A stretch of 64,000 nt of DNA, taken from assembly GCF_006874645.1 (NCBI RefSeq), contig NZ_CP030082.1, positions 868,001-932,000 of the forward strand, given 5' to 3'. The position numbers and the translations under genes were made by a program. This document shows, piece after piece, positions 43,455 through 51,360 of the stretch; position 1 is the first letter of the stretch, and each line of letters starts with the position of its first letter. The notes beneath the pieces were generated by a model. It was not told the DNA's origin. It searched no databases and saw only the letters and a list, made by a program, of their open reading frames with translations. The stretch comes from Bdellovibrio sp. ZAP7 (GTDB lineage: Bacteria; Bdellovibrionota; Bdellovibrionia; Bdellovibrionales; Bdellovibrionaceae).

Positions 43455-43755
43455 CAATTCAGTAATTCACTCGTTGCGTAAATTCATTTCTAATACTTAA
43501 TTTCTGAGAATTTTTCTTCACACATTTTTTGTTTATCGCATTTTTCTCGAATGAAAATGTTAAATTTCCGTTCTCATGAATGACCTCAGGGATCAAGCAG
43601 AACGTGTTCGGCGACTGTTCATTACAAAAATATTCATATCCAATGCAGCCACCACAGCGATACGAATTTATTCCAACACACAACTGCATCTTTAAGGCTT
43701 ATTCGAACGTTGGCACTTACGCCTGAGGATGCGCAGACTATTTGGAGAACAGAAT
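43455..43755. other. AT-rich intergenic region before the secreted-protein operon
   Basis: About 300 bases. Very T-rich on the plus strand; a 76-codon minus frame is judged spurious. It should hold the promoter of the six-gene operon, but no box could be placed with confidence. Confidence 0.5.
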
Positions 43756-44295
43756 ATGAACGTTAAACGCGTACTAATCGTGTTGGCATCGCTATTTCTA
43801 AGTTACGCCTCTCATGCAAATGAGTTCGATGAAGGATCGGGGGAGTTCGATGCTCCGGCAAGACCAGGATATAGCGAAGCGGATATTCAGAAGAAAATCG
43901 AGAACGAGATGGCCATCGCTTGTTCTGGAAATCTGTGCAAGGTCGTAGGTCAGGACAATCAGGGATCTGGTTGGACCGTGCAGTTTCAAGTTGGGTACGG
44001 CAATAACAATAACAATGGCAACGGCGATACGATCTATATCGGTGGGAACAATAACAACGGCAATAACAATGGTTATGCCAGCGTGACTGTGACTTACAGA
44101 AACTTCAAATGTCATTCGAATCTTTTGGTCACACCAGCAGTGTATCGTTTCGTGAATACTTACCTTTACAACATGGTGAATTCGGATGGCTCTGTGAAGA
44201 GAAACTTCTCTCCGGCAGATCAGACTGTGATTTTGTTTTACACGACAATGTTGAACAAGGTCAGCGCGTGCGGCATGGGCGGCGTGGTTAATTAG
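43756..44295 (+). CDS. Exported Asn/Gly-rich protein, first gene of the secreted operon
   Basis: 179 residues; signal peptide MNVKRVLIVLASLFLSYASHA. Pairs of Cys occur at IACSGNLCKVV, with further ones in NFKCHSNL and SACGMGG. A low-complexity insert GNNNNNGNGDTIYIGGNNNN divides two beta-rich parts. No family recognised. Start ATG 43756 with GGAG upstream. The next gene begins 8 bases after the stop. Confidence 0.7.
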   Translation: MNVKRVLIVLASLFLSYASHANEFDEGSGEFDAPARPGYSEADIQKKIENEMAIACSGNLCKVVGQDNQGSGWTVQFQVGYGNNNNNGNGDTIYIGGNNNNGNNNGYASVTVTYRNFKCHSNLLVTPAVYRFVNTYLYNMVNSDGSVKRNFSPADQTVILFYTTMLNKVSACGMGGVVN

Positions 44296-44303
44296 GAGCT
44301 TTT

Positions 44304-47060
44304 ATGAGCATCATCGGATCTATTCGTGCATTGGTTGTATTGATGTCTGTCCTGAGCACCTATGGTGTTCAGGCGCAAGCGGCGGCTGCGACGACATCAG
44401 TGCCGAATCTTCAGTTGAATAATTTAAGAATCGCGAACAGAGCACAATGTGCGGTGGATTCCGAGTTGCCAACAGATACCGCATTCATAGTAGTGGATGG
44501 CTACAATGCCGGGAAACTTTCCTATTCCCTGGCAAAAAACATCGGAGCCGATGTTACCCAAATGAGTACCGAAGGTATGCAGGATTTCCGCATTGCCGTT
44601 TCTTTACTTACCAAAAATATCGTAAACAAACTTTTTGCGGGTGCTTTACCCATGCTTCCGCTGAATTTAAAAACTTCCAAGCTTGCCAAATACAATGAGC
44701 TGGCTGCAAAGTGCGAGAAGAAAACCTACTGTCCTGAACTGAATACTTATCTCGCAAAAATTTGGGATAATTCCGAGGGCGCAGGCGTTCCTTGGACGAA
44801 TATTGATAACTTTAGTGCCACACAATTTCTGAAAGCTAAGAAATCCGACAGAGTCGGGTGTTACTACATTAAAAAATTCTCCGGGCTTCAGGGTAATCTG
44901 CACACCACCGAGTTGGATGCAGCTTCTTTACAGGACATGGCCCAATCCTATTTGAAGTCGGATAAAAACATCACGGTTTGCGAAGACCGCGATGCCACTC
45001 TTGATTCGCGCAATGCCATGATTCAGTTGAATCTAAAATTGGATGGTGCGGGCGACTTTAATGCCTATGGCTTTGATTTTTGGAACAGTTTGAAAATCTA
45101 TCTTTCTTTCGCCTGGAGATATTCCAATCTTCCGGCGCAAGTCAGCCCGCATATGGGCGAACTCTTTAAATCCATCGCGCTTGAAGAATCCATTATGCTG
45201 GTACCAAACGGGTGTAAGAGCATCGAAAAGCCTTCTTGTGATGCTGAAACCCTGTCGTTGAATTCAATTCGTGAACTGGCAAAGCCCGGGCAAAATCCAG
45301 CAGATTCATTTAAAGAAAATCCAGACGGCCCGGATAAGGGCGCAGTCAATAATGGAACCCGCTCTGTGAATGATGATTTCCTGGGAACTCGCGGCTACGA
45401 GGAAGCTTCCGACTGGGTGGAAAACTTCCGAAAAAACTTCGTTCAAAATCGTGGTTCGATGAAAAATCGCCTGCAAAGTGCCATTCAGTTCCTGAATGTC
45501 ATTTCTGGAGCGATGACGGCCGAAGAATTAAATGAATTTGTAAAACCGATGGCCTTTGCCGGTAACTATACGGCGGCACATCGTGATGAACTTTATTATA
45601 TGTGTACCGAAGCTCGCTTGGCAGGCGATAAACGCCTGGATTTCATGCGCACGGGGATTGACCGCGTTAAGCAGTTGTCTGTGATGCAAAAAGCCTTTGA
45701 GGGTTCAGCGAAAACGTTGGATCAGATGTCGCAATACTTTGATTCGTCGGCAATCGGTCTCATCAGCTACTGCGACACTTTAGAAAAGCAAAATATTTGG
45801 AATGTTGATGGTTATACTGTGAATAAAGCAGGATTTAACCGCTGGGCCAAAGAGATCCTGAATATTCCACGCGATAAAGATACCGTGACGACAGAATTTC
45901 AACCGATGTCTTTTGGTGCTCCTTTATTGGTTTGGGATAAAACGAAGCCGCTAAATTCTTCCAACGTGATTTGTCAGACGGGAATGGACTGTGCCCGTAA
46001 ATTGACCAAGGCTATGGTGGACCTTTATGCGGTTTCAAAATATGCGGATGCGTTCTTGCCCGTGTCATCGACTGTGGCTTCTCCGGATATCTTTAATCCC
46101 TATGCGGATCTGAAAGCCTGCAAAATCTATGATCCTTGGTTCCAAACTCGTCGTGCGAACAAGCGCCTTTTTGCAGACTTAACCAGCACGGTGTTGTTCG
46201 GTTGGAATGCTTTGCCTCTTTATATAGATGTGGATTTCACAGCACCAAAGGTGACCAGCCTTCAACAACTGATTGAAAACGGCACCGTAAAATTTGATCC
46301 TGCAATTCAAAAATCCAAAATGCAGTACTCCGTTTTGGCGGATTTTGGTCCTCTGGTGGGTGCTCCATGTGCGGTATCCATAGCGCCGAACAGTGCCAAG
46401 GCCTTTAATTTTTATGCCTTCAATGGAATTACGATGAATTACTGCAAATCCCGTTCTGATGGAACGGCGATTGGTGGAGAGAACGGCTCCGTTGATAACA
46501 AAGTGCCTAAGGCACGATCTTACTGCGGCGGCTGTTCGATCAACTTTGTCGGTGTGACCTCTGGTGCAGCGATGGCGACGGCGAATGCCTTGCCGATCAA
46601 TCCGATCAAGTTGGGGATCTATTTCTTCCGTTCTATTCAACGGTTTGTGGACGCTAAAAAAGACAAAGTGAATATTCCGATGTCTTCAGACGTGAATCTG
46701 CAAAAGGTTGCAGAGACTTATCAAAAGTACGGCGGATATATCCCTGAGCACTGCGTGGAGCAGTTGGGTGCAGGCGTGGGCTGTTACCAAAATATCTGTA
46801 TGGCTAAAGCTGTGGATGCATTTGAAAAATACACCGGCAAAAAGGTGATTGATGTGAATACTTCTAACTCTGGGCCAACAAGTTCCTCCATCACCAAAAC
46901 GATCTCTATTAAATCGGCTCTTTGTGATGGCGAAGTTCTGATGAAGTTTAATTGCACAGACGATGGCAAAAAGTTTTCAACATATGAGCGCTTCGGTGGG
47001 TTGTATGGCCGTACCAAAGAGTGTCGTGATGCCATTGGGCAGAATTTCTGGGGGCATTGA
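44304..47060 (+). CDS. Large exported protein, second gene of the secreted operon
   Basis: 918 residues. A probable signal peptide (MSIIGSIRALVVLMSVLSTYGVQAQA) is followed by a mostly helical body with many spaced cysteines (for example QCAVDSE, KCEKKTYCPE, NGCKSIEKPSCDAE, RSYCGGCSINF, EHCVEQLGAGVGCYQNICM). A short hydrophobic stretch near residue 760 (GVTSGAAMATANALPINPIK) may be membrane-associated. No known domain recognised by eye. The stop overlaps the next start (TGATG). Confidence 0.75.
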   Translation: MSIIGSIRALVVLMSVLSTYGVQAQAAAATTSVPNLQLNNLRIANRAQCAVDSELPTDTAFIVVDGYNAGKLSYSLAKNIGADVTQMSTEGMQDFRIAVSLLTKNIVNKLFAGALPMLPLNLKTSKLAKYNELAAKCEKKTYCPELNTYLAKIWDNSEGAGVPWTNIDNFSATQFLKAKKSDRVGCYYIKKFSGLQGNLHTTELDAASLQDMAQSYLKSDKNITVCEDRDATLDSRNAMIQLNLKLDGAGDFNAYGFDFWNSLKIYLSFAWRYSNLPAQVSPHMGELFKSIALEESIMLVPNGCKSIEKPSCDAETLSLNSIRELAKPGQNPADSFKENPDGPDKGAVNNGTRSVNDDFLGTRGYEEASDWVENFRKNFVQNRGSMKNRLQSAIQFLNVISGAMTAEELNEFVKPMAFAGNYTAAHRDELYYMCTEARLAGDKRLDFMRTGIDRVKQLSVMQKAFEGSAKTLDQMSQYFDSSAIGLISYCDTLEKQNIWNVDGYTVNKAGFNRWAKEILNIPRDKDTVTTEFQPMSFGAPLLVWDKTKPLNSSNVICQTGMDCARKLTKAMVDLYAVSKYADAFLPVSSTVASPDIFNPYADLKACKIYDPWFQTRRANKRLFADLTSTVLFGWNALPLYIDVDFTAPKVTSLQQLIENGTVKFDPAIQKSKMQYSVLADFGPLVGAPCAVSIAPNSAKAFNFYAFNGITMNYCKSRSDGTAIGGENGSVDNKVPKARSYCGGCSINFVGVTSGAAMATANALPINPIKLGIYFFRSIQRFVDAKKDKVNIPMSSDVNLQKVAETYQKYGGYIPEHCVEQLGAGVGCYQNICMAKAVDAFEKYTGKKVIDVNTSNSGPTSSSITKTISIKSALCDGEVLMKFNCTDDGKKFSTYERFGGLYGRTKECRDAIGQNFWGH

Positions 47061-47653
47061 TGAAAGCGATCGTATTGGGACTTTTATTGGTGGTGAGCTC
47101 GGTGAATGCCTGGGCTTTAAAAATCGAGTCTGAATATATTCAAACTATTACTGGGCAATATGTAAAGACCACGAAAGTGAGCTGTGACGAGGCTTCGGCG
47201 AATCACTGCACGCAAATCTGCAACAATCCCATTCTGTGTCAGCGTCGTGAGCCTTATTGCCGCAATTGTGCGGGAACATCTTCGCCGCTATTGCGCCAGC
47301 TCTTTACTGAATTATCTCACCTGTACACGGTGAAGTCGCAGCTGACGGAGCTATCCCCTTTGGTGAAGTTTCTGGCAGAAGAAGACTATGTCCTATTGGA
47401 TTTAAACAGCGTTTTTAACTACTATACGCCGGTCGGCGGTGAGCCCTTTTTGAATGAACTGGTTAACTTCTGTGGGGACCGTGCGGATTCCGCCTTGTTG
47501 GTGGTGCGTTTGGATGAAGTTCATCAACCAGCATCGTTGAATTATATTTTATGTCCGGATGGCGCGGGGCAGACCGCAGCTTTTGAAGTGGCACCCAGAA
47601 CTCCAGGTATTCAGCAGCAATTGAAAACAGAAATATTTTTTAATTTAAACTGA
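47060..47653 (+). CDS. Exported Cys-rich protein, third gene of the secreted operon
   Basis: 197 residues from the ATG overlapping the upstream stop. Signal peptide MKAIVLGLLLVVSSVNAWA. Six of its eight Cys cluster in one segment (VSCDEA, NHCTQICNN, LCQRREPYCRNCAG), a disulfide-rich knot or metal site. A C-terminal globular part (LLRQLFTELSHL...) follows. No family recognised. Translationally coupled to the 918-residue protein, so the two may work as a complex. Confidence 0.72.
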   Translation: MKAIVLGLLLVVSSVNAWALKIESEYIQTITGQYVKTTKVSCDEASANHCTQICNNPILCQRREPYCRNCAGTSSPLLRQLFTELSHLYTVKSQLTELSPLVKFLAEEDYVLLDLNSVFNYYTPVGGEPFLNELVNFCGDRADSALLVVRLDEVHQPASLNYILCPDGAGQTAAFEVAPRTPGIQQQLKTEIFFNLN

Positions 47654-47703
47654 GTCTTTCAGTTTATTACAACAACTCCCTTACAGGGGAAAAGGAGAAC
47701 AAC

Positions 47704-48822
47704 ATGAAGCGTTTTGTAAAAGGTTTGGCTACAGCAGCCGTGACCTTCATGGCGATGCAAGCGAACGCCGTGCAAGTTACTTATACATTCAGAGTGAACA
47801 GCTCTGGTCCAAGTATCTATCCGTGTAACGCGGGTCTATTGACTGAGAATCCATACGAAGGTGACAAAGCAATTTGTTATACAGCGGATACTCATGAAGT
47901 CTGTAGTCCTGATTGTGTGGGTGTAGACTGCCAAGGTAACGACAACGGCAAACCTGGTCCTGAATTGCCAGGTCCAAACCCACATCCACATTTCGCAGCG
48001 ATGGAGTTGTTTGGGGGCGATCACCACCAACCACCAAGTCATCAACCACCGAGAAAAAATGCCTGCGAGTGTACAACAGCGTACGGTCGTAAAAATGGTA
48101 ACTACCTGCATGCGACATACACTCCATGGGGCGAAAACAACGATCCACACAAAGACGTGATCTCTGGTCAAGGCAATCAGTTTGCTAAACTATTCAATGA
48201 CGAAGTAACACCATACAAAAATGTATTGCAAACTTTGGCCTTCAACCTAGGCAGCGAATTGTATACTGCGAAATATTTCGTGGATATCTGCTACCGTGGT
48301 TCACAAATTGACTACGGCACGATCAACACATCTTGGAATATCTTGGCTGAGACTGCGGTAACTGACTTCGGTTTCGCACCTGGTGGTCAAGGTTACAGCA
48401 AGCTTTCAGATCTGGAAATGAAAGCTTACGTGATCTGTACAACCCAAAATAAGACTTGTGAACACGGCAATTGCAACGACTACGATACAGCTATCGACGG
48501 CGCGCAAGTGGCTCAATTCAATAACTCTTTCTTGGACTACTTAGGTCAAGGTAAATTCAATTACTCTGACAAATCTAACTGGGTGCCAGCAAAAGGTTCT
48601 TTCACACAGTTGATCGACAACAAGTATGAAGATCTTGGTAACCACGCAGCAGCTAAATTCTGTAAAATCCGCTACGTATACTCCGAAACAAATGGTTTGG
48701 ATAAAGACAAAGCGAAACACAGAAAATGGCAAAAACATGGCGCAAATATTTGCACTCACACGAAAGTGGAAATGGCATCTATGGGCGAATGCACAAACTG
48801 TGGTGGCGGCCACAAACACTAA
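47704..48822 (+). CDS. Exported Cys-rich protein, fourth gene of the secreted operon (paralogue of the sixth)
   Basis: 372 residues, signal peptide MKRFVKGLATAAVTFMAMQANA, 15 cysteines. A His/Pro-rich insert lies near residue 95-120 (GGDHHQPPSHQPPRKNAC) and the C-terminus is GECTNCGGGHKH, which may bind metal. Shared with the sixth gene: YPCNAGL / YLCNASL, THEVCSPDC / TGEVCSPLD, NACEC / GACVC, LGSELYTAKYFVDICYRG / LGSENLGAEYSVRFCYLG. The ribosome-binding site AAAGGAG (47691-47697) is the strongest of the cluster, so this is probably the most abundant product. Confidence 0.75.
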   Translation: MKRFVKGLATAAVTFMAMQANAVQVTYTFRVNSSGPSIYPCNAGLLTENPYEGDKAICYTADTHEVCSPDCVGVDCQGNDNGKPGPELPGPNPHPHFAAMELFGGDHHQPPSHQPPRKNACECTTAYGRKNGNYLHATYTPWGENNDPHKDVISGQGNQFAKLFNDEVTPYKNVLQTLAFNLGSELYTAKYFVDICYRGSQIDYGTINTSWNILAETAVTDFGFAPGGQGYSKLSDLEMKAYVICTTQNKTCEHGNCNDYDTAIDGAQVAQFNNSFLDYLGQGKFNYSDKSNWVPAKGSFTQLIDNKYEDLGNHAAAKFCKIRYVYSETNGLDKDKAKHRKWQKHGANICTHTKVEMASMGECTNCGGGHKH

Positions 48823-48879
48823 TTCGATGATTTGAAAAGTTACTCCGACGGAGTTGGAGTGCAGGGAAGGGGAGATCCT

Positions 48880-50475
48880 ATGTCTAAAGTTAATTTGAAT
48901 GCACATTCCGTTCTTAGAGGCGGCAGGCTCTGGTCTCTTCTTCTTGGTTCGTTGTTAACCGCAAATGCATCTTTAGTATCTGCAGCTTGTGTTGTTGATA
49001 ACGACGAAAGAATCGAACTAAATATTTCCCCCGAGACTCAGTCTTGGGGGGATTATAATGGAAACCGTTTGATCACGGCTTCCCGCGTTTATAAATGCGA
49101 ACAGGATGTGGGCCGCTACTTGATGCTCTCCCTGGGCGCAACACAATGGAGCGATTCCACGGACGTTAAAGACACTTATATGTTCGATACGTACGAGCCG
49201 CCAAACTGTTCAATTAATAATTCAAGATCTTTTGCCGCTTACACACCGGAGCGTACAAAAGCTAATTTCAGTCGCCAGTACAAATTTATCAGAAGCTGTT
49301 TTGATCTGCGTGTGGTGGATGTGGGCGGAGCCCAAATCATCGCCAAAGAAGATCAGGATTACTGCAAAATTGAAAGAACCTCTGATGGCGCTGTTATCCT
49401 TCGCGGTGATATGTGTTTCTTAAAAATTCGCGCTCAAAGTAACTTCGCAGTGCAACCAATCCTTAAGGACAAATGTGCTGATCCAGAATATTTGCGCTCA
49501 ATCGGTGTTCAGGCTCAAGATATTTATGCAAACTTGAATATTCTGACCACAGGAGACGATTCGGGCTACAGTGAAGATGTCGATAACATCGGCAGCCGTG
49601 CCATGCATGTTAGCATCACGCCGAATTCTAAACTATTAAATCTATCTGAAAACTACGGAACCAGCGTTCCCCGATTTACTACCAGCTATAATATCAATGC
49701 GGATTGGGGAGATCTTAAAATCCACACCGACTTCGAGAATAAAACCGAAATCGGTCTTTCGTTTTTTGTTGCTAACATGACTAATGAAAAGTGTCTGGGC
49801 GGAGAATGCTCCAGCTCCTCAAATTTCACTCAACCTTTCGTGGGCCAGGTTGAATTATTTAAACTTTCAAACGGTCGTCCGCCAAAGTTAGTTGAAGAAT
49901 GGTGGGACGGCGGACTTGTCCCGCCCAACTGGCAGGGCTTCGTTAAGGGTATTCAGTATCGTGTTCCAGATAAAGTGGTTGAGGCAGGGGGACGTTACCG
50001 TATGGTCGCGACATTCCAGGATCCTACCGATGATTATGCGATTTTCTTGAACGGTCTTCGTCAGATGTTGTTGCGCATGTACGATGTCGATGGCGCTACA
50101 GTGGGAATTGATACTTTGCCTGCTATTTCAACGTTATCTACCCTGGGAGCTATTCCCGGATTCAATGGCACTCGAGTTTTAAATCAAAACAATCAAAGCG
50201 TGGATTTATCTCAGACCCTTAAAGGCTTAGAGGAAATCATCGCTTCGACGGTGTGGCCTCCATATTACGAATCTATTTGTGATAATGAAAAATGCACGAA
50301 ATTCGCGAAACGCAAGTTTCATCAACGCTTGGTTTTGGAATTCACGGTCGAAAAACCTGAAATCGGTGACGATGAAGTAAAAATTAAAGACGTGCGTATG
50401 CAGAAAATTTCTCCGGTATTTGATAGCTATCCGATGCAGAAGTCAGAATTTATCAAATTGCAGTGTGGAGGCTAG
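48880..50475 (+). CDS. Exported protein, fifth gene of the secreted operon
   Basis: 531 residues from ATG 48880 (GGGGAGAT in front). Signal peptide with a long n-region, RLWSLLLGSLLTANASLVSA. The mature part starts ACVVDNDERIELNISPETQS and is beta-rich with scattered Cys pairs (EKCLGGECSSS, SICDNEKCTKF). No known domain recognised. Its stop lies 3 bases from the next start. Confidence 0.75.
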   Translation: MSKVNLNAHSVLRGGRLWSLLLGSLLTANASLVSAACVVDNDERIELNISPETQSWGDYNGNRLITASRVYKCEQDVGRYLMLSLGATQWSDSTDVKDTYMFDTYEPPNCSINNSRSFAAYTPERTKANFSRQYKFIRSCFDLRVVDVGGAQIIAKEDQDYCKIERTSDGAVILRGDMCFLKIRAQSNFAVQPILKDKCADPEYLRSIGVQAQDIYANLNILTTGDDSGYSEDVDNIGSRAMHVSITPNSKLLNLSENYGTSVPRFTTSYNINADWGDLKIHTDFENKTEIGLSFFVANMTNEKCLGGECSSSSNFTQPFVGQVELFKLSNGRPPKLVEEWWDGGLVPPNWQGFVKGIQYRVPDKVVEAGGRYRMVATFQDPTDDYAIFLNGLRQMLLRMYDVDGATVGIDTLPAISTLSTLGAIPGFNGTRVLNQNNQSVDLSQTLKGLEEIIASTVWPPYYESICDNEKCTKFAKRKFHQRLVLEFTVEKPEIGDDEVKIKDVRMQKISPVFDSYPMQKSEFIKLQCGG

Positions 50476-50478
50476 GAA

Positions 50479-51360
50479 ATGAAACAAGCTCTGCTGCTTA
50501 TGGTTTTTATTCTGGGTAGTGTTGTGGCGCGCGCAGATGTAGCGATTCAAACCGCGGTCGACAATACCACGGCAGAGGAACTTTATCTCTGCAACGCCAG
50601 CCTTCGGCATCCGACCTTGCCGGCGGAGCAGGAGTGCTTGAATCTCTCTACTGGGGAAGTTTGTTCTCCCTTGGATAGCGATTCCAAAAAAGGTGCTTGT
50701 GTCTGTCGCGCCAAAACTAATTACGGGGATCAGATCATCGGCTGGAACAAAGATGAAGATTATGCCGTCGTGATTGGGTCTAATGATTGGATGAGCTTGT
50801 TTTCTACACAAGACTCTTTCGCCAATAAATTAGCACGGTTGGATATTTCTTTAGGAAGTGAAAACTTGGGTGCCGAGTACTCAGTGCGTTTTTGTTACTT
50901 GGGACCCCAGGAAGTTTTGCAAAGACAGGGGACCACCACCACAGATTTGACCGAAGGAAAGTACTTCGTCGACGTTTCTTTGGCGGGTTCGAATTACAAT
51001 CAATCCCTCGATACGGTGGGTTTTTCCTATCAGTGTGATTATCGTTATCGCGGGAATCAATCCGGCCCACGTAAGAAAAACGAGCAAGGCCCCTCTAAGG
51101 GAGTTGTGGAAAAGGACGATAGTGCGAGTTACACGATCTTTGGTAATTCACCAGGATCTCGCCCTGGCTCCGTGAACTTCCTGCAGCGTGCGTTGTCCTT
51201 GAATTCATCAGCTTCGCAAGTTCCGCGCTTCTGCGTGTTTGAGTTTAAGTTCAAAGAACTTTCCGGAAAAAGCCTGGGCAGGAACATCAACGCCAGCCAG
51301 GTGAATTTTTCCGGGAAACTCCGTATTTGCAAGCAAGGCACGTGTCCGACGGGTTTTTAG
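50479..51360 (+). CDS. Exported Cys-rich protein, sixth gene of the secreted operon (paralogue of the fourth)
   Basis: 293 residues; signal peptide MKQALLLMVFILGSVVARA; ten cysteines. It aligns with the fourth gene along the N-terminal 160 residues (see that entry) but lacks the His/Pro insert. The C-terminus RICKQGTCPTGF is short and Cys-containing. Being beta-rich with conserved Cys, the pair may be structural subunits of a surface assembly. That is inference. Confidence 0.75.
   Translation: MKQALLLMVFILGSVVARADVAIQTAVDNTTAEELYLCNASLRHPTLPAEQECLNLSTGEVCSPLDSDSKKGACVCRAKTNYGDQIIGWNKDEDYAVVIGSNDWMSLFSTQDSFANKLARLDISLGSENLGAEYSVRFCYLGPQEVLQRQGTTTTDLTEGKYFVDVSLAGSNYNQSLDTVGFSYQCDYRYRGNQSGPRKKNEQGPSKGVVEKDDSASYTIFGNSPGSRPGSVNFLQRALSLNSSASQVPRFCVFEFKFKELSGKSLGRNINASQVNFSGKLRICKQGTCPTGF

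Follow-up and report, generated by a model that had tools for sequence, protein, structure and literature searches.

Six consecutive genes of Bdellovibrio sp. ZAP7, here named A to F, appear to form one operon-like module for an exported, disulfide-locked multi-protein assembly of the cell envelope or cell surface in Bdellovibrionota, an interpretation of the sequences that we favour with modest confidence. The products probably build one envelope or surface complex which has so far not been described. The genes are located in a window of 64,000 nucleotides (positions 868001-932000 of a complete genome of 4.12 Mb; coordinates in Table 1 are counted within the window). They are six plus-strand open reading frames lying head to tail over positions 43756-51360, with the location, lengths and tight packing reported in the initial annotation. 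The intergenic gaps in order are 8, -1, 50, 57 and 3 bases, the negative one being a TGATG overlap.

Table 1. Features of the six-gene block (window coordinates)
Feature	Position	Strand	Description
Intergenic region 5' of A	43455..43755	+	blocks conserved in close relatives (alignment)
Gene A	43756..44295	+	179 aa, exported, 4 invariant Cys; acidic EFDxGSxEFD conserved past the signal peptide
Gene B	44304..47060	+	918 aa, exported, 18 invariant Cys; longest product of the block and the one followed most broadly among relatives
Gene C	47060..47653	+	197 aa, exported, 8 invariant Cys; start codon overlapping the stop codon of B
Gene D	47704..48822	+	372 aa, exported; mature N-terminus SSGPSIYxCNAG conserved; founder of the D/F paralogue family
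Gene E	48880..50475	+	531 aa, exported, 12 conserved Cys; two predicted Ig-like domains
Gene F	50479..51360	+	293 aa, exported; paralogue of D

All six genes are under very strong purifying selection. In comparison with a close relative (96-99% protein identity) the dN/dS ratio is 0.009-0.032 for every gene, with 0.023 for gene A, which indicates that all of them are real and strongly constrained. The region upstream of A is likely to be the promoter region of the operon, as judged from its sequence, and a sigma-70-like site was not found in it. In the initial annotation the very strong ribosome-binding site of D was taken to suggest that one subunit is made in excess. The site of D (AAGGAG, a 6-base match) is indeed modestly better than those of B and F (5-base matches), but the difference is just one base, so that the argument for excess synthesis is weak. 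The G+C content of the block is 45.7% vs. 45-46.6% in the surroundings, and B has no relative on viral, phage or plasmid records (viral_contigs, phages, plasmids collections). For these two reasons a mobile element was rejected. The transglycosylase gene upstream and the TPR gene downstream of the block in the window were also rejected as parts, since they adjoin it in close relatives only.

On inspection, each of the proteins A-F begins with a hydrophobic stretch resembling a signal peptide, in agreement with the signal peptides predicted earlier, and neither a lipobox nor a second strong membrane segment was seen in any of them. The total numbers of cysteines from A to F are 4, 22, 8, 15, 12 and 10; thus most members are rich in cysteines, as had been noted, with A the lowest. 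Apart from the invariant residues listed in Table 1, B has a partly conserved pair and F has four invariant cysteines. In D, four are invariant in a wide set of sequences and others are conserved at about 80%; the 12 of E are well conserved. Even sets of invariant cysteines are what fully paired disulfides would give. A VKOR-type oxidase was detected in 4 of the 4 genomes tested, and DsbB was not detected in the four genomes tested.

The earlier view that the fourth and sixth genes are clear paralogues is confirmed by the profile-profile comparison of D with F (E 2e-34), and further D-like copies are present in other loci. The same kind of comparison led us to reject E as a paralogue of D and F; a relationship of A to D was rejected as well.

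The gene order turned out to be well preserved in relatives. In Bdellovibrio, every complete locus (one not cut by a contig end and not masked by an overlapping reading frame in gene picking) has the order A-B-C-D-E-F, with the exception of L053, where an intact-looking B stands alone, with none of the other five genes alongside (L053:8149-10917). In Bacteriovoracales the halves are swapped, mostly to D-E-(D')-A-B-C, D' being D-like, and the blocks adjoin housekeeping genes, uvrB and lon among them. In a distant version (L051/L090, L091, L093) the order is A-B-C-extra gene-D-F-E; in L051 the extra gene encodes a trypsin-like protease. In one locus E is split into two reading frames (L077:5762-7379), by frameshift, assembly error or decay.

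B, D and E occur together in 17 of the 24 Bdellovibrio genomes and are all missing from the other seven (Fisher p for B and D 2.9e-6, uncorrected for shared ancestry). Together with the preserved order, this is the co-occurrence across relatives that the initial annotation had named as support for a system. Pairwise distances between the members correlate, with r mostly 0.7-0.95 and the lowest values (0.56-0.69) where A is paired with C, D, F or G, a gene described below. Such correlations are expected of co-inherited genes, and shared ancestry contributes to them. Some genomes carry two to three diverged copies of the block at different places, which form separate branches in the B tree, the deeper forks having moderate support. 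That unrelated exported genes have clustered by chance is very hard to believe: nothing beyond the patchy distribution was found in its favour, and the conserved order and the strict co-occurrence over the phylum contradict it. The one-module reading draws on the gene order, the co-occurrence, the purifying selection, the export-type N-termini, the even cysteine numbers and the paralogy of D and F, and the lone B of L053, having no partners, counts against a single assembly.

The unit has been found in Bdellovibrionota-type records only. B as a query has a relative in 25 of 60 nearby genomes, and the B profile finds one in 75 of the 369 Bdellovibrionota genomes. Scanning 84,980 species (genome_contigs) yielded 33 loci, all on records of Bdellovibrio, Bacteriovorax, Halobacteriovorax or other Bdellovibrionota-type organisms, and none elsewhere. 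Three of the 33 are on records titled just 'Proteobacteria bacterium', among them L072, which the B search assigns to the window's own family. In about 80% of the searched Bdellovibrionota genomes no member was found; some of these absences may reflect incomplete genomes. Being missing from most genomes of the phylum, the unit is accessory rather than core machinery. The absence from seven of the 24 Bdellovibrio genomes and from most of the phylum also means that predation as such apparently does not depend on it. Accordingly, the earlier suggestion of a disulfide-stabilised surface or periplasmic assembly possibly linked to predation survives in part: the cysteine patterns, the order and the co-occurrence would fit an exported assembly, but the predation link is not supported.

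The members A-F have no match beyond chance in Pfam, NCBIfam, PHROGs or PADLOC, and profiles of A-E found no credible sequence relative in the PDB. PAS hits of C were rejected, as they cover 26 residues of human proteins. These searches bear out the initial impression that no member belongs to a recognisable family; matches of several members to unrelated known families, which would have spoken against a system, did not appear. Nor does the unit fit a known system on the defining features that were tested.

The structure of B was modelled with good confidence by AlphaFold2 from 31 sequences, giving a pLDDT of 83.5 and a pTM of 0.81. The predicted fold is mixed alpha/beta and not a barrel. The best scores of the whole model (E 0.71 against the PDB by Foldseek, E 0.023 against BFVD, Z 5.9 by VIA-align) were all treated as chance, and for this reason resemblances to flagellar rod proteins and pentameric channels were rejected. 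On this model the fold of B seems to have no match among solved structures, which in a whole-chain search of PDB and BFVD does not amount to proof of a new fold. The AlphaFold model of E (pLDDT 83.7, pTM 0.82) comprises two Ig-like domains with insertions. Its best structural match is WxLIP (Z 10.5 over 237 residues, rmsd 7.0 Å), followed by chaperones of the PapD/CsuC type, namely CsuC, SfaE, FimC, PapD and Caf1M (Z 7-8 over about 185 residues, rmsd 5.5-7 Å). By Foldseek the best E-value is 1.3e-4, and TM-scores are low. We read the likeness of the E model as a shared arrangement of two Ig domains, not as family membership; except for the Z of 10.5 with WxLIP, the similarity seems no greater than what common Ig arrangements give.

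The archaic chaperone-usher systems, such as Csu with the chaperone CsuC, the subunits CsuA/B and the usher CsuD, offer one comparison for the block, as a divergent relative in which E would be the chaperone, D and F the pilins, and B would stand in the usher's place. We consider this quite unlikely. The loose alignment of E with the above chaperones and the presence of paralogous exported subunits, D and F, with a conserved mature N-terminus, would be compatible with such a relationship. However, there is no usher in the block, and the HD100-like genome G006 has two copies of the block yet no PF00577 match; B has no counterpart in these systems, nor does its model have the shape of a barrel. 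No member gives a pilin or chaperone hit in Pfam, and an rmsd of 5.5-7 Å is loose. PapD-type chaperones need basic cleft residues, but E has no column in which R or K is conserved at a level of at least 95%. Separately, the window's genome has a weak usher match within an 817 aa open frame about 0.7 Mb from the block (G000:C1:198202-198519).

The best structural match of E, the WxLIP protein of Enterococcus faecium, belongs to the WxL/WxLIP complexes of Gram-positives, which differ in phylum and envelope. Here the rmsd is 7 Å, WxL partners were not seen, and E with its 23 aligned homologues matched no Pfam family beyond chance hits, WxLIP domain models included. Operons of exported, cysteine-rich and disulfide-dependent proteins are also known from F-type conjugation (TraN, TraU, TraW, TraH and TrbC). 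A-F resemble these in being exported, cysteine-rich products of one operon, but no Pfam match to the Tra/Trb families of F-type type IV secretion was obtained, and the block contains no ATPase or relaxase. For anti-phage defence, none of A-F matched a PADLOC model. Finally, the MAT fibre proteins are, like A-F, exported proteins of predatory Bdellovibrio with a possible surface role; they form trimeric adhesive fibres (PMC10769870), and A-F are set apart from them by description, not residue by residue.

In many loci F is followed by a gene of about 400 aa, G, although the block of the window has no adjoining copy. Its alignment shows an invariant TDCAD motif and His163 (H163), and a weak match to DUF4846 is a lead at most. 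On these motifs G may be a papain-like thiol enzyme. It is the only family with an odd number of invariant cysteines, five, which might leave one free cysteine for catalysis. Relatives of G occur in all 24 Bdellovibrio genomes as a larger family. This secreted family (TDCADA...H) is expanded in the genus, each genome having 1 to 8 matches, most of which are lone genes not next to the block; copies in the window's genome are at G000:C1:1236958-1237965 and G000:C1:2691732-2692049 (L119, L123). In one locus G is split into two reading frames (L050:3624-4940), through frameshift, assembly error or decay, and a conserved gene of 133 aa following G is common to five loci, L056 among them.

The expansion of this family, similar to secreted thiol enzymes, could point to an effector complex, a toxin or hydrolase released into the prey rather than a fixed structure, all the more as all members are exported, the group includes predators and one distant version of the locus carries the trypsin-like protease gene. 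Such a role nevertheless seems unlikely, given that A-F include no catalytic family, that the six genes change slowly and show none of the diversification that effectors would be expected to have, and that seven Bdellovibrio genomes do without the unit. We judge it similarly improbable that A-F are a complex for housekeeping or nutrient handling in the predator's own periplasm, with no surface role. Signal peptides without membrane anchors, soluble disulfide-rich folds and the absence of a gene for an outer-membrane channel are all compatible with it, but a housekeeping complex would not usually be so patchily distributed or occur in several diverged copies. The missing channel also counts against a surface placement of the parts in our preferred reading, that of one exported assembly, and a periplasmic location fits equally well.

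In such an assembly the parts would be exported by the Sec route, locked by disulfides and held in the envelope or on the surface, where they would bind each other. We assume that B may be the central scaffold or core, that the variable D-type subunits (D, F and the further copies) could have their adaptor or chaperone in E with its two Ig-like domains, and that A and C would be small accessory parts. Where G is present, it might be a thiol enzyme engaged in processing or cross-linking of the assembly. The most likely role would be that of an accessory surface or periplasmic structure contacting other cells or surfaces, which some lineages use and others dispense with. A bolder version, in which A-E(F) with optional G represent a disulfide-locked extracytoplasmic machine of a new class, confined to Bdellovibrionota, with a new fold in B and prey or surface contact in some predators, is conceivable though rather doubtful.

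In its gene context, genome G006 corresponds to B. bacteriovorus HD100: the PGI gene is located at 704-705 kb and is adjoined by an FHA-GGDEF gene like dgcB (bd0742); one of its two block copies lies 3-11 kb beyond these genes. The PGI gene carries the tag Bd0741 (PMC8354745), the dgcB-like FHA-GGDEF gene is required for predation (PMC6561027), and bd0745 directly follows the sigma factor gene bd0743 without being co-transcribed with it (PMC3464611). The block copy of the HD100-like genome that lies close to the dgcB-like FHA-GGDEF gene is at L056:1-11520. Passages from the main texts of transposon and proteome papers show no entry assignable to the block, and under interpolated, estimated locus tags the HD100 copies were not found discussed in the papers searched at the level of their main texts. 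In the HD100 clade, A is immediately preceded by a gene for a collagen-like protein of 940-1050 aa with up to 65 consecutive G-x-y triplets, mostly GNN (L038:11298-14453, also L036 and L037, partial in L040). It was rejected as a part because its conserved C-terminal region occurs in 21 of the 24 Bdellovibrio genomes whether or not they carry the unit, and because a distance of about 85 kb separates this region from the block in the window's genome.

In summary, Bdellovibrionota, known above all for predation, hold a conserved exported system of several genes that is unnamed and without a detectable family, the largest protein of which has no match among solved folds. Owing to the clean presence and absence within one genus, its role is directly testable: the HD100-like genome has two copies, and natural strains without the unit can serve as controls. 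Should the assembly prove to be a surface structure, the few known devices for contact between predator and prey would gain a further member.
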